64,000 nucleotides of DNA from Mesonia phycicola (GTDB lineage Bacteria > Bacteroidota > Bacteroidia > Flavobacteriales > Flavobacteriaceae), in NCBI RefSeq assembly GCF_900141885.1, contig NZ_FQYY01000008.1:62001-126000 (forward strand). The letters are read 5' to 3'. Positions within the stretch are counted from its first letter, which is position 1. Each line of letters starts with the position of its first letter. Of the stretch, positions 40,243-45,524 are shown piece by piece. The notes under the pieces were generated by a model. That model had not been told where the DNA came from, searched no databases, and worked only from the letters and a program-made list of their open reading frames with translations. Both the position numbers and the translations under genes were made by a program.

Positions 40243-40268
40243 GCAACCTTTTGCATTAAAACAGACTA
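40243..40268 (+). promoter_or_regulatory. ECF-type promoter 1
   Basis: GCAACC (40243-40248), 15 bp, GACTA (40264-40268), 29 bp before the lipoprotein ATG. The same element with identical spacing recurs at 41592-41617. Confidence 0.55.
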
Positions 40269-40296
40269 TTTAATGAACCACTAAAACTAAAACGTT

Positions 40297-41367
40297 ATGA
40301 AAAGACTTTTTTTAATAATTATTATAAGTTTCACAGTTTTATCATGTGAAAACGAGATTATAGGGTTACCAGCGTATGAAGATGTAGAAATTATAGAAAA
40401 AGAATCTGAACTTAGTTCTTACATTAACAGAATAGCTAGCTCAGATAACCCTAACGAAGAAACTATTAGCTGCATAAAATTTAATTATCCGTTAGTTATA
40501 TATCTTTTTGATGCAAATCAAGATTATGTAAGTTCAAATTATATTAATAGTGGAACTGAGTTTAGTGATTTTCTAAATTCAATCCCCATCAATTTACAAA
40601 TGGGTATTAATTACCCTCTAATGACAACCGACAGCAATGGAAATATTATAGAAATTCAAAATAATCAAGATTTAAAAGAGTCTATTGAAACTTGCGTTAA
40701 TGAAGAATTAATCATTGCTTGTAAAAATTATTTAACTGGCACTAACGAAGGGGAAGCTTATGATATTTGCTATTGGGAAATTAAATCATTTACAAATCAC
40801 ACAGAGTTTGAAGGTGATTTATTTAGCTTATCAGAAAGTGGCAGACTCTCTTTTTATCATGACAACATTAGATACGACGGGAGTTGGTTAGCCCATTCAG
40901 ATATTAGTGAAGATAATTTATATCTAAACATTTTTTTAAAAAATAACGGAGAATTAAACTTTCTTAATAAAGATTGGGAAGTACTATCTGGTTTTAACGA
41001 GTGCTGCAATTTTGAAATTACAGATGGCACCAATACCATTTTAATGCAGAGAATTTGTCTTGCAAAATGTATAAATTACGAAATTGAAATATGCCAAGAA
41101 GACCCTCAACAACCGCTAGTTGTTTCTTTGGAAAAATATATACCTTGTATGTTTACTATTAATACTGAAGAGTTTCTAGACCCTATTCAATTTAATTTTT
41201 ACGAAACTCAAGATTGGGCAACTACCGCAACAGATAGTATAAATTTAGAAAGTTATACATTAATCAGTAATCCTCAATCTTTATATTTAAACCGAAAATC
41301 TTATTATACAGGGACCAACATAGATGACATAGAAATAACTGTAGAAGGTGTCACAGACTGTAATTAA
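40297..41367 (+). CDS. Lipoprotein of unknown function, ECF-locus paralogue 1
   Basis: A 356-residue protein with a type II signal peptide (MKRLFLIIIISFTVLSC, C17). The N-terminal third (YEDVEIIEKESELSSYI...FNYPLVIYLFDANQDYVSS...LQMGINYPLM) recurs in the degraded copy 278 bp downstream. The rest contains a WEIKSFTNHTEFEGDLFSL segment and several cysteines, and looks beta-rich. No family is recognised. Its promoter resembles that of the neighbouring sigma-factor operon, so I infer membership of that regulon. It probably sits in the outer membrane facing the periplasm or the surface. Confidence 0.75.
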   Translation: MKRLFLIIIISFTVLSCENEIIGLPAYEDVEIIEKESELSSYINRIASSDNPNEETISCIKFNYPLVIYLFDANQDYVSSNYINSGTEFSDFLNSIPINLQMGINYPLMTTDSNGNIIEIQNNQDLKESIETCVNEELIIACKNYLTGTNEGEAYDICYWEIKSFTNHTEFEGDLFSLSESGRLSFYHDNIRYDGSWLAHSDISEDNLYLNIFLKNNGELNFLNKDWEVLSGFNECCNFEITDGTNTILMQRICLAKCINYEIEICQEDPQQPLVVSLEKYIPCMFTINTEEFLDPIQFNFYETQDWATTATDSINLESYTLISNPQSLYLNRKSYYTGTNIDDIEITVEGVTDCN

Positions 41368-41397
41368 AAGGTAATTACTAAAAAAAACAAGAAAGGC

Positions 41398-41437
41398 AAA
41401 AACAGCTTTACAAACCTTATAAACAAAAGCTGTTTTT
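41398..41437 (+). terminator. Terminator of lipoprotein paralogue 1
   Basis: AAAAACAGCTTT (41398-41409) pairs with AAAGCTGTTTTT (41426-41437), 30 bp after the stop. Confidence 0.75.
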
Positions 41438-41591
41438 GATTTACCTTTAGTATTAAAAAATTAAGTAGAAGCAAATCATAACTAATAGATTAAAATTATA
41501 ATTTACTAACTTATTGTAAAAATGGAAATGAATTATAACTGTTGAAAAATTAATTTTTACAGGTAAAACAAAAAAAATATTTTTTTTTCAC

Positions 41592-41617
41592 GCAACCTTT
41601 TGCTTTAACTAAGACTA
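41592..41617 (+). promoter_or_regulatory. ECF-type promoter 2
   Basis: GCAACC (41592-41597), 15 bp, GACTA (41613-41617), 28 bp before the ATG at 41645. The surrounding leader (CGCAACCTTTTGC, then AAACCACTAAAA) is also shared with promoter 1. Confidence 0.6.
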
Positions 41618-41644
41618 TTTATTAAACCACTAAAATTAAACATT

Positions 41645-42072
41645 ATGAAAAAAATAATTTTATTGCCTGTAGTCACATTTGTATCGGTAAGTAATAACAA
41701 ACATTATAAAAAAAATACTAGGTATGAAGATATCGAAATCTTAGATCAATCTTCAGAGTTATATGAATTACTTGCTCAAAATACACTTAGAGAAGGAGAA
41801 TTTGTTTTTTCAAAATTTAATTCTCCAATTAGTTTTCATTTATTAAATAAAGAGCAAAAATATATAGACACCATTACTATTAATGAGGAAGATGAAATAG
41901 CAGATTTTCTATCAGCTGTAGACCCTAGTTTAAAAATAGGTATTAGTTACCCTATTTATGCTTCCTCTTTTTTAGAAGAAAATACAGTTATAGATATAAA
42001 CACCAATAATGAATTAAAAGAGTATGTAGAAAAGTGCACGATGAAGATTTAATAATTACATGCGAAAATTAG
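41645..42072 (+). pseudogene. Degraded paralogue of the 40.3-kb lipoprotein
   Basis: An open frame of 135 codons runs from 41645 to 42052 and matches the N-terminal third of the 40297 lipoprotein (YEDIEIL..SELYELL, FNSPISFHLLNKEQKYID, LKIGISYPIY, NNELKEYVEKC). The lipobox cysteine is lost: VSVSNN replaces VLSCEN (one base, TGT to AGT). After C131 one base is missing near 42038. In the restored frame the match continues as DEDLIITCEN (compare NEELIIACKN) to a TAG at 42070-42072. The remaining two thirds of the gene are absent. The sigma-factor gene starts at 42060 inside this tail. Confidence 0.7.
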
Positions 42073-42638
42073 AAAATAGCTATTTGACAGAAAAAGAACT
42101 CATACTTTCTTGCAAAAAGAACAATAGAAAAGCTCAAAAAGAACTCTATGAAATTTACAAAGAGAGGTTGTTTTTGGTATGCTTAAAATATTGTAGAAAT
42201 AAAGCAGAGGCAGAAGATAACCTGCACGATACTTTCGTGGAGGTTTTTCTGAATATAAAAAAGTATAAATTTAAAGGATCATTTGAAGGTTGGCTAAAAA
42301 GAATTGCTATTAATAAAGCTATAAGTCTCTATAAAAACAAAAAAGAAATTAACGTAATATTTTACGATTCTCAGCTTAAAGAAGAAGAAGAAACTAAGCT
42401 ATCTGAATTTAACGATTTACCATTACAAAGTATAATTAATGCTATACAAAAATTACCCAATCAATATAGATTAGTGTTTAGTTTATATTACCTAGACGGT
42501 TACTCTCATAAAGAAGTTAGCGAAAAATTAGATATATCTATAAGTACCTCTAAATCTAATTTACATAGAGCCAAAATTCATCTAAGAGAAAATTTAAATA
42601 ATAGTAGTAATTTAAAAAAAGCTAAACGTGGAGCCTAA
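42060..42638 (+). CDS. ECF RNA polymerase sigma factor
   Basis: A 192-residue sigma factor with region 2 (AQKELYEIYKERLFLVCLKYCRNKAEAEDNLHDTFVEVFLNIKKYKFKGSFEGWLKRIAIN) and region 4 (LPNQYRLVFSLYYLDGYSHKEVSEKLDISISTSKSNLHRAK). The ATG at 42060 overlaps the tail of the degraded lipoprotein frame. A TTG at 42084 (MTEKELILSCKKN) would match the usual family start and cannot be excluded. The anti-sigma-like gene overlaps its end by 11 bp. The upstream ECF-type promoter suggests autoregulation. The inducing signal is unknown. Confidence 0.93.
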   Translation: MRKLENSYLTEKELILSCKKNNRKAQKELYEIYKERLFLVCLKYCRNKAEAEDNLHDTFVEVFLNIKKYKFKGSFEGWLKRIAINKAISLYKNKKEINVIFYDSQLKEEEETKLSEFNDLPLQSIINAIQKLPNQYRLVFSLYYLDGYSHKEVSEKLDISISTSKSNLHRAKIHLRENLNNSSNLKKAKRGA

Positions 42639-43953
42639 CAATAATTGGAAAAATAAATTTAACAATCCCGATAAAAACTTTGTTCCTAGTGATAAAGTTT
42701 GGGACTCTATAGATCAAACTATTAGCTACAGACGTAAGAAAAAAAGATTCGTATTTTTACTCTTATTTGTTGGCCTTTTTTCTATTATTTCAATTGGCGG
42801 TTATACTACTTTTGTAAATTCTGATAAGGTTAAAATTACCAATAACAAGAATAACACTAGTAACACCAACAAAACCACACCTAATGAGGTTAATGATAGC
42901 AGCAATAAATCTTTGCATGAAAACGAAAAAATCACGCATAAAAATCACAACAATAAAGATTCTATTAAATTAGTAAACAACAACAAAAAATCACTTTTTA
43001 AAAGTGAAAATACTATAGGCTTTAAGAGTAAAAAAACAGATAATCATAAAATTGCTTCGGTAAACAAACAAGAAGAATCTTACTATAGTAAAAAACACAA
43101 CCAACCTATAACAAAACCTATCAATTCTAGTCATATTAGTTTTGCTTCTAATAAAGATTCATTTATTTCTTGCCAGTTAAATCCGTTAGGTTTAGAATTT
43201 TATAAGTTTGATATTTCAGGAGAGCTACTAAAAAGAAAGAGTAAAAAGAATAAAAACCAAGTAAAAGAACAATTTATTACTTGGGGAATAAAACCAGTAG
43301 CAGGAATAAATATTCTAAAACCTCCTTACAAGAATCATCCGTTAGAAGCAAATAACCCTAATTATAAACAAAATATTAAAATAGGATACAGCTATGGTTT
43401 TCAAATATCTGCAGAGGTAACCCCAAAACTATGGGTTTACACAGGACTTACCGTAAATCATTATAAATATGATATTAAAAACATAAGCATAGACGAGCAA
43501 GAACCACTTAGCTTAGAAAAATTTATAAACATTAACACCAACACATTTATAAGTCAACAAATGCTAAACAATTTTGCCAATGGTACTAATCAATTAGATT
43601 TACAATATAAGTTAGAGTTTTATGAAATACCTTTAATGGCATCTTACAACATACTTAATAAAAGAAACAAAAAACTAAAACTAAATGCAGAAGCAGGTTT
43701 CAGTTTCTTCTTTCAAAAAAATAATTCTATTAACCTAACTAACCAAGAGCAAACACTACCAGCAGGTGAATTAAATTTTTTAAATAAAAATCCATTTAGT
43801 ATTCAAACAGGTTTGCTATCTACCTATCCCTTAAACAATAATTTCTCTATAGAAGCAGGTAGTTTATTTAAATATCATTTCAATTTATTAAATAACGTAA
43901 ACACTTATTCTATTAACCTACAACTTGGGATTAAGTATAAATTTGATTATTAA
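42628..43953 (+). CDS. Anti-sigma-like protein fused to an outer-membrane beta-barrel
   Basis: A 441-residue protein starting at a GTG that overlaps the sigma gene by 11 bp. Residues 1-36 are a short cytosolic segment (MEPNNNWKNKFNNPDKNFVPSDKVWDSIDQTI), followed by RRKKKR and one membrane helix (about 38-60). A 110-residue Asn/Lys/Ser-rich linker is next. The C-terminal 220 residues (WGIKPVAGINI, YSYGFQISAEVTPKLWVYTGL, YEIPLMASY, LNAEAGFSFFF, LQLGIKYKFDY) look like a PorT-type beta-barrel. One chain would thus span from cytoplasm to outer membrane. Its place after the sigma gene suggests it restrains the sigma factor; that is inference. Confidence 0.7.
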   Translation: MEPNNNWKNKFNNPDKNFVPSDKVWDSIDQTISYRRKKKRFVFLLLFVGLFSIISIGGYTTFVNSDKVKITNNKNNTSNTNKTTPNEVNDSSNKSLHENEKITHKNHNNKDSIKLVNNNKKSLFKSENTIGFKSKKTDNHKIASVNKQEESYYSKKHNQPITKPINSSHISFASNKDSFISCQLNPLGLEFYKFDISGELLKRKSKKNKNQVKEQFITWGIKPVAGINILKPPYKNHPLEANNPNYKQNIKIGYSYGFQISAEVTPKLWVYTGLTVNHYKYDIKNISIDEQEPLSLEKFININTNTFISQQMLNNFANGTNQLDLQYKLEFYEIPLMASYNILNKRNKKLKLNAEAGFSFFFQKNNSINLTNQEQTLPAGELNFLNKNPFSIQTGLLSTYPLNNNFSIEAGSLFKYHFNLLNNVNTYSINLQLGIKYKFDY

Positions 43954-44018
43954 AAACAACTTATAACACGTTTACTTAAAAGCTATACAGATAAAATAAA
44001 ATTTTTCTTATTCTTTTT

Positions 44019-44044
44019 GTAACCTTTTATTAATGCTTACGTAT
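44019..44044 (+). promoter_or_regulatory. ECF-like promoter 3, upstream of rpoD
   Basis: GTAACC (44019-44024), 15 bp, CGTAT (44040-44044), 42 bp before the rpoD ATG. Spacing equals promoters 1 and 2, but the -10 differs (CGTAT instead of GACTA). Confidence 0.4.
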
Positions 44045-44085
44045 AATTATATATAACACTCTTAAACATAATCTAGAGAACGTAA

Positions 44086-44949
44086 ATGAGACAACTTAAA
44101 ATTACGAAGCAGGTAACTAATAGAGAAACGGCTTCGCTAGACAAGTATTTACAAGAAATTGGTAAAGTAGATTTAATTACTGCAGATGAAGAAGTAGAAT
44201 TAGCACAACGTATTAGAGCTGGAGATGATAGAGCTTTAGAGAAATTAACAAAAGCTAACCTACGTTTTGTAGTATCTGTATCTAAACAATACCAAAACCA
44301 AGGATTAACTTTGCCAGATTTAATTAATGAAGGTAATTTAGGATTAATTAAAGCTGCAAAACGTTTTGATGAAACTCGTGGTTTTAAATTTATCTCTTAT
44401 GCTGTTTGGTGGATTAGACAATCTATATTACAAGCATTAGCAGAGCAATCTAGAATTGTTAGACTACCTCTAAATAAAATTGGGTCTATAAATAAAATAA
44501 ATAAAACTTATGCTTTTTTAGAGCAATCTAATGAGAGACCTCCAAATGCAGAAGAAATTGCAAAAGAGTTAGACATGAGTATTAATGACGTAAAAGAATC
44601 TTTAAAAAATTCTGGTCGTCACGTATCTATGGATGCCCCTTTAATTGAAGGAGAAAACTCTAATTTATACGATGTTTTACGTTCTGGAGAATCACCAAAC
44701 CCTGATAAAGATTTATTACACGATTCTTTAAAAACAGAAATTGAAAGATCTTTAGAAACACTTACTCCAAGAGAAGCAGACGTAATTAGATTATACTTTG
44801 GTTTAGGAGATCAGCAACCTATGACTCTAGAAGAAATTGGAGAAACTTTTGATTTAACTAGAGAAAGAGTAAGACAAATTAAAGAAAAAGCAATTAGAAG
44901 ATTAAAACATACCTCTAGAAGCAAAATTTTAAAAACCTACTTAGGTTAA
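44086..44949 (+). CDS. rpoD: Primary RNA polymerase sigma factor RpoD (Bacteroidota type)
   Basis: A 287-residue sigma-70 family protein, short because Bacteroidota RpoD lacks the long N-terminal domain. Region 1.2 is [27 protein letters not shown] and region 2 is [56 protein letters not shown]. Region 4 is [48 protein letters not shown]. It recognises the TTTG/TAnnTTTG promoters seen across this window. It is monocistronic with a strong terminator and lies directly after the ECF operon. Confidence 0.97.
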
Positions 44950-45116: not shown

Positions 45117-45524
45117 ATGAGACACGCCATTTGCTATCTAAGTAATTCTAATTTAAATTTCACTAAAGAAGAGATACTAAAATTACTTATTGCTACGCAA
45201 GAAAAATATGAAAAAAGAAATATAAAAGGAGTGTTTCTATATTCAGAACGTAATGTATTTCAAATCATAGAAGGAGAAACAAAAGAAGTACTTGCCCTAT
45301 GGGAAGAAAAACAAAACGATAAAAGACATAAAAACATTATCAAAATTTTTGAAGAAGAATTAAAAACCTCCCCTTTTGATAGTTATATATGTGAATATAT
45401 TTCTGATGACGATAAATTTAATACAGAAAAAGTTAATAGATTACATCACCACCTTAGACTTTTAGAAGATAAACCAAGAAACGCTGCAGAAGAAATTTTA
45501 AAATTATTTCTAAAAAGCCGTTAA
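45117..45524 (+). CDS. BLUF-domain-like protein
   Basis: A 135-residue single-domain protein. The N terminus MRHAICYLSNSN has the tyrosine (Y7) expected in BLUF blue-light sensors. NIKGVFLYSERNVFQIIEGE aligns with the ITGLLLY..FLQVLEG segment and keeps the glutamine (Q49). DKRHKNI matches the conserved D-x-RH. The flavin-contacting asparagine of canonical domains appears replaced (Y31 at that column), and no Trp or Met equivalent is evident near the C terminus. It may be a BLUF photoreceptor with altered chemistry or a fold-only relative. No effector domain is attached. Confidence 0.7.
   Translation: MRHAICYLSNSNLNFTKEEILKLLIATQEKYEKRNIKGVFLYSERNVFQIIEGETKEVLALWEEKQNDKRHKNIIKIFEEELKTSPFDSYICEYISDDDKFNTEKVNRLHHHLRLLEDKPRNAAEEILKLFLKSR

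Follow-up and report, generated by a model that had tools for sequence, protein, structure and literature searches.

Two predicted promoter classes at the rpoD locus of Mesonia phycicola and a candidate ECF sigma factor for the primary sigma gene in Flavobacteriales

We analyzed a 64,000-nucleotide (nt) stretch of the Mesonia phycicola genome (contig NZ_FQYY01000008.1, positions 62,001 to 126,000, forward strand; hereafter the window), focusing on promoter-like sites around a gene for an extracytoplasmic function (ECF) sigma factor and the neighbouring rpoD, and on the sigma factor that might read the site in front of rpoD. The genes and sites described in this paragraph all lie on the plus strand. 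A lipoprotein-like gene (40297-41367; 356 amino acids (aa), no Pfam family) is followed by a truncated paralog (41645-42052), a pseudogene that aligns with residues 1-133 of the 356-aa protein at 30% identity, breaks off after that and forms the first gene of the sigma operon. The ECF sigma factor gene itself (42060-42638, hereafter the local ECF) exceeds the Pfam cut-offs for Sigma70 r2 and r4_2 and reaches 88.6 bits with TIGR02937 (cut-off 42.9); it is a sister of the recA-linked ECF of its own genome (46% aa identity). Directly after the sigma gene stands the gene of a putative anti-sigma factor (42628-43953; Pfam PF13568), followed by rpoD (44086-44949), which encodes the canonical primary sigma factor. 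The initial annotation had described three look-alike ECF promoters at this locus, and all three sequences are present where it placed them: site 1 at 40243-40268, 28 nt ahead of the ATG at 40297 of the lipoprotein gene; site 2 at 41592-41617, 27 nt ahead of the ATG at 41645 of the sigma operon; and site 3 at 44019-44044, 41 nt ahead of the ATG at 44086 of rpoD.

Based on their sequences (site 1, GCAACCTTTTGCATTAAAACAGACTA; site 2, GCAACCTTTTGCTTTAACTAAGACTA; site 3, GTAACCTTTTATTAATGCTTACGTATAA), the sites are predicted to be promoters of two different classes. Sites 1 and 2, both GCAACC-N15-GACTA, can be written as GCAACCTTTT-N-AGACTA, and the exact GCAACC-N15-GACTA form has only these two matches in the 3.28-Mb genome (reversed pattern, 0). 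The likeness of site 3 to them is limited to the -35 half (AACCTTTT), whereas its -10 half reads CGTATAA instead of AGACTA, giving a predicted ECF-type promoter GTAAC-N16-CGTATAA at 44019-44046. The joint consensus proposed earlier for a genome scan, GYAACC-N15-SRYWT, fits neither site 1 nor site 2, because GACTA ends in A. Its matches in the window are site 3 and one minus-strand site within the lipoprotein gene, against an expectation of 0.41 (at least two matches in 10/100 shuffles). Since this is within chance, the consensus alone is no evidence, and the evidence has to come from genome comparison. Two further patterns were tried in the own genome: AACCTTTT-N9-13-GTMT (20 matches, 10 with the reversed pattern) was not taken as a regulon motif, and GTAAC-N15-18-CGTAT gave 20 matches against 18 reversed, so that a large regulon for it was rejected.

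The upstream site of rpoD is kept in relatives, a point on which the initial annotation had called for a check. Among 60 Flavobacteriales genomes, 58 had an rpoD available for inspection, and 50 of these carry a G[TA]AAC-N16/17-CGTATAA-like site upstream of it. The exact form GTAAC-N16/17-CGTATAA occurs in 27 of the 30 nearest rpoD upstreams, and the other three vary in one element (CGTACAA, CGTAATA or GAAAC). An AAC -35 and a CGT -10 element at fixed spacing were found in 51/59 upstreams (spacing 17 in 37, 16 in 14), and in an alignment of 51 sequences the information is concentrated in TTTGTAAC and CGTATAA and low in the flanks. A search of the 60 genomes with the strict form TGTAAC-N16/17-CGTATAA returned 45 matches, spread over 38 genomes; 36 stand at rpoD and nine elsewhere (reversed pattern, 13). 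The strict form is thus essentially confined to rpoD, the nine other matches being fewer than those of the reversed control. At second and third RpoD-like copies (11 loci and two of the own genome), no such site was seen. The own genome (G000 in locus labels) has two further RpoD-like genes, at G000:C37:136096-136959 and G000:C16:109147-110010, whose products are 79% and 77% identical to the canonical RpoD, and three RpoD matches are found in 14/16 genomes of its genus.

Since small genomes narrow the field of possible readers, they singled out one ECF. A Pfam Sigma70_r2 search of genome G047 found RpoD and a single ECF, the counterpart of the M. phycicola protein G000:C34:10476-11024 (hereafter the candidate ECF), and the rpoD site is kept there; in G041 and G054, which lack the site, RpoD is likewise accompanied by a single ECF, but one from another family. 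In the own genome, the same domain has 17 matches, comprising 14 ECF genes and three RpoD-like ones. The prediction that the candidate ECF and the rpoD site go together was fixed before the search, with G042, G055, G025 and G048 named as genomes without the ECF. All four predicted absences and 41/42 predicted presences held, a count that leaves out eight site-bearing genomes whose ECF was already known as well as G041, G045, G051 and G054, which were known to lack it. Overall, the candidate ECF is found in 50/60 genomes and missing from 10; one genome with the ECF, G019, has no rpoD match. The rpoD site is present in 49/49 genomes with the candidate ECF versus 1/9 without it (Fisher 5e-9), and the strict motif stands at rpoD in 36/49 versus 0/9. 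A profile built from 30 members separates the family, with at least 180 bits in 15 positive genomes and at most 112 bits for every other ECF; in 50 genomes called lacking, the best match did not exceed 108 bits. From this distribution, the rpoD site most likely belongs to a separate, dedicated ECF and not to the neighbouring stress sigma factor.

The candidate ECF scores over the cut-off for Sigma70 r2 and reaches 92.5 bits with TIGR02937; among the NCBIfam cut-offs listed, only the superfamily one was exceeded. Its assignment to the PG0214/GFO_1088 family (NF058625) was rejected with 79.6 bits against a curated cut-off of 130. In the tree, the candidate ECFs form one clade of 36/62 rows with support 100/99, and 26 other ECFs, some very long-branched, fall outside. 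The gene order in the own genome is small membrane-type protein, GT2 glycosyltransferase, ECF, lipA and GAPDH, with no sign of an anti-sigma gene next to the ECF. The first of these proteins has 66 aa and no Pfam match, the ECF gene overlaps the end of the glycosyltransferase gene, and the radical S-adenosylmethionine gene that follows resembles lipA (LIAS_N 25.7 bits, cut-off 27) and precedes the GAPDH gene. Peptide signatures in 30 Flavobacteriaceae loci recovered the small protein in 28, the glycosyltransferase in 22 and lipA in 17, so the neighbourhood is only partly kept. No anti-sigma-like gene was seen by eye beside the candidate ECF in 10 loci, a family search across all loci not being part of this inspection. 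Within 70 nt upstream of the cluster head, the sigma-A box TAnnTTTG, a consensus taken from PMC9723704 and PMC7366714, occurs in 26/28 loci (shuffle rate 7.5%), and an ECF-type site in 0/28.

The sigma-A box at the head of this cluster is the reason why we propose a loop from RpoD to the candidate ECF and back to RpoD. In this loop, RpoD would transcribe the cluster, presumably as a single transcript, from the TAnnTTTG box, and the candidate ECF, which would not be held by an anti-sigma factor, would bind site 3 and start transcription of rpoD. The two sigma factors would then form a mutual positive relay dedicated to the primary sigma factor. We put the probability at roughly 0.7 that sites 1 and 2 are the local ECF's own promoters and that site 3 is the rpoD promoter read by a different ECF in such a mutual loop. 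A more far-reaching proposal, to which we would give slightly less than even odds, is that RpoD of Flavobacteriales is not self-sustaining: rpoD would have no promoter for its own holoenzyme and would depend on an ECF free of an anti-sigma factor with rpoD as its sole conserved target, which in turn would depend on RpoD. The relay would be ancient, with an ECF family that spans the class, and on several occasions would have been taken apart, ECF and site both being lost, partly where rpoD directly follows pnp. If true, the candidate ECF would serve essentially a single target, and the ECF-promoter pairing would therefore be open to study by covariation.

Several points weigh against the proposed relay, some within Flavobacteriales and others in the class-wide comparison given below. 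Genome G059 (83% complete) has the rpoD site without the candidate ECF. G045 fits only the loosest site rule, and counting it raises the number of genomes with site but without ECF to 2/9; the semi-strict rule itself was set after the order-level sequences had been seen. The genome counts are not independent: with one row per family, the p value is 0.004 (mixed family f13 counted against), and on a tree built from 49 RpoD proteins, the absences of the ECF take about six changes (bootstrap range 5-7), only two of which are required by well-supported branches. The only RpoD of G025 is 81.9% identical to the canonical protein and 81.3% to a paralog, and this genome may have lost the canonical copy altogether. 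G051 is a genome of 0.3 Mb; dropping both G025 and G051 gives 49/49 versus 1/7. A pnp-like C-terminal peptide lies at most 300 nt upstream of rpoD in G041, G042, G045, G054 and G055, where rpoD may be read from pnp, and the same peptide is found upstream in the site-keeping genomes G016, G026, G043, G046, G050, G056 and G058.

Outside the order, 121 genomes of the class were chosen beforehand (52 without and 69 with the candidate ECF), and 80 of them were searched, 40 from each group. RpoD scored above threshold in 74/80, comprising 39 genomes with and 35 without the ECF. Because no more than 14 candidates were scored in each genome in the first class-wide search, the 40 absences that entered the comparison were checked again with a profile, and 40/40 held. 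A matrix trained on the order only scores higher at rpoD in the 39 genomes with the ECF than in the 35 without (p = 7e-4). Under the rule fixed on the order, the site is found in 11/39 versus 3/35 (p = 0.03); the contrast of 26/39 versus 4/35 is reached only by a rule loosened to CGTT after the sequences were seen, and G137 has a strong site without the candidate ECF. In the tree, the candidate-ECF family forms a clade (100/99) with members across the class; those that branch first as drawn come from G193, G263, G073 and G113, and no rpoD site was seen in the three of these genomes that were looked at (G193, G073, G113). The argument cannot rest on the planned within-family contrasts: f75 agrees with it, f36 agrees only under the loosened rule, in f57 the site stands in both G100 and G137, a similar sequence overlaps a sigma-A box in both genomes of f31, and f53 and f18 have no site under the fixed rule. 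Overall, the proposed relay has good support within Flavobacteriales; outside the order it is no more than a suggestion. Five genomes outside the order with two RpoD copies (G071, G093, G100, G125 and G097; locus pairs L244/L288, L250/L281, L249/L272, L253/L295 and L283/L280) pair an AAC-N16/17-CGTW site at one copy with TAnnTTTG at the second.

Alternative explanations were weighed against the same data. One of them would act in addition to a dedicated promoter: rpoD of M. phycicola might also be read through from the sigma-anti-sigma operon behind site 2, coupling envelope stress to rpoD in cis. The 132 nt from the anti-sigma stop to the rpoD start contain no unusual fold (z -0.87) and no terminator-like sequence, though the terminator scan has no power at this gap, as shuffles also gave 0. 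The same gene order is seen in G010 and G027, but these are the only ones among 12 rpoD upstream stretches with the operon in this place, and we regard such read-through as rather unlikely. Of the initial idea that stress feeds into rpoD expression, direct reading by the local ECF is not supported, and what is left is the possible read-through, for which the lack of a terminator-like sequence is weak evidence.

That another widespread ECF reads site 3 is very improbable. The ECF of the PG0214/GFO_1088 family (G000:C37:180256-180762, L090; orthologs L091-L119) was tried first, because its conserved own promoter, typically TTGTAACAAAA-N-CGTC and present in 28/30 upstreams, shares the -35 element and spacing with site 3. 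It was dropped for its -10 element, which is CGTC (CGTT in four cases) and not CGTATAA, and for its distribution, since none of the ECFs inspected in G043, G046, G047, G050, G056 and G058 corresponds to it and all six genomes keep the site. A second candidate, the ECF at G000:C37:235701, which may be like SigP of Porphyromonas gingivalis, was also dropped for its distribution: its like is missing in G047 and G044, where the site is kept, and present in G041, G054 and G048, where it is lost.

We give an equally small chance to RpoD or a paralog reading site 3 as a sigma-A promoter of unusual form. The TATAA part of CGTATAA resembles a general -10 element, and RpoD is present in every site-bearing genome. 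Against this, the TAnnTTTG box is not above chance at rpoD (5/49 versus a shuffle rate of 8.8%), as in ECF promoters there is hardly any variation in the CG before TATAA or in the AAC 16-17 nt upstream, and the site is absent in 8/9 genomes without the candidate ECF although rpoD is there.

Least probable of all is the view of the initial annotation that all three sites answer to the local envelope-stress ECF (42060-42638), so that stress directly raises rpoD transcription. The three sites do share the -35 half, and the operon does adjoin rpoD here and in G010 and G027 (with one gene between in Aquimarina L371). However, site 3 is kept in G047 and G050, whose ECFs include no counterpart of the local one (G050 has two, neither in its family). 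The -10 elements AGWCTA and CGTATAA differ, and each recurs at its own place; Aquimarina carries the two motifs together, each in front of the gene it belongs to. The picture drawn from the window is corrected in this respect, as the neighbouring sigma factor, though locally a tempting choice, is most likely not the driver of rpoD.

A dedicated ECF for a primary sigma gene, as proposed here, has a known parallel in ShbA and hrdB of Streptomyces, reportedly first described in Streptomyces griseus. As in that case, the ECF proposed here would start transcription of the primary sigma gene and would have very few targets. The two are likened by role; the phylum is another one, and the primary sigma factor here is of the unusual Bacteroidota type. 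ShbA transcribes hrdB, and hrdB and shbA were the only targets found in S. coelicolor (PMC9205884). Two further differences follow from the same article: shbA is reported to be transcribed in vitro by ShbA itself, whereas the cluster head of the candidate ECF has a sigma-A box and no ECF-type site, and hrdB has a second promoter, which is read by SigR (PMC9205884). Within the family of the Mesonia host, ECF-type promoters with a CGT -10 box have been described in Flavobacterium psychrophilum as motif SM6, derived from mapped 5' ends (PMC9723704). The selection printed there comprises genes of the type IX secretion system, Band 7 and ECF/anti-sigma genes, and rpoD is not named in the main text; the sigma factor reading SM6 was not settled in that study (PMC9723704). 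Among the matches listed from titles and abstract openings of the open-licence literature, neither a sigma factor transcribing a Bacteroidota primary sigma gene nor an ECF promoter for rpoD was reported.

Sites 1 and 2 fit a more familiar scheme, and it is very likely that the local ECF drives its own operon and the lipoprotein gene through them, with site 2 predicted to serve autoregulation. This part of the initial annotation, a local autoregulated regulon, stood up well: the exact form has no third match in the genome, and the element also precedes related ECF genes. The 80 nt around the two sites are 81% identical to each other, whereas identity between the lipoprotein-like proteins that follow is 30% over 135 aa, which argues for a promoter that was held while the genes drifted. 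We inspected 30 of the 32 loci found with relatives of the local ECF. In Aquimarina sp. L371 (ECF 56% identical), GCAACCTTTT-N-AGTCTA precedes both the sigma gene and a lipoprotein-like gene whose product is a homolog (27% aa identity) of the 356-aa protein, an arrangement close to that in M. phycicola. Two sites were found in Tenacibaculum aiptasiae L379 (54%) and one each in the Dokdonia metagenome-assembled genome L374 (51%) and G027 (52%), giving eight sites in five genomes before the local ECF and its relatives, the two of the window included. Across 1.15 Mb (overlapping loci included), the pattern gave 15 rows that correspond to nine distinct sites, and the reversed pattern gave 0. The remaining one of the nine is upstream of L082 (G000:C15:180593), a related ECF of the own genome; the sequence there, GCAACCTTTTTCACTTTATCTTCGTCT, mixes features of both promoter classes.

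Relatives of the local ECF are linked to recA in 17/30 loci, and none of these 17 carries the site-1/2 element. The recA-linked ECF of the own genome is L079 (Pfam RecA nearby), and the protein encoded after it has an N-terminal layout similar to that of the putative anti-sigma factor at 42628-43953. The latter consists of a short N-terminal part, a hydrophobic stretch, a long linker and a C-terminal OMP_b-brl_2 domain. The operon resembles autoregulated group 4 ECF/anti-sigma operons in that it has a promoter element in common with a neighbouring lipoprotein gene and a membrane anti-sigma candidate directly downstream of the sigma gene. It differs from them in the element itself (GCAACCTTTT-N-AGWCTA), in the fusion of the putative anti-sigma factor to an outer-membrane beta-barrel domain, and in the decay of its first gene.

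The neighbourhood of the local ECF recurs in several loci (L371, L379, L400, L403): in Aquimarina a single gene separates its counterpart from the rpoD downstream, in Tenacibaculum the counterpart immediately follows pnp, and the operon stands between pnp and rpoD in G027 and directly before rpoD in G010. Downstream of rpoD, the window contains a gene for a BLUF blue-light sensor at 45117-45524.

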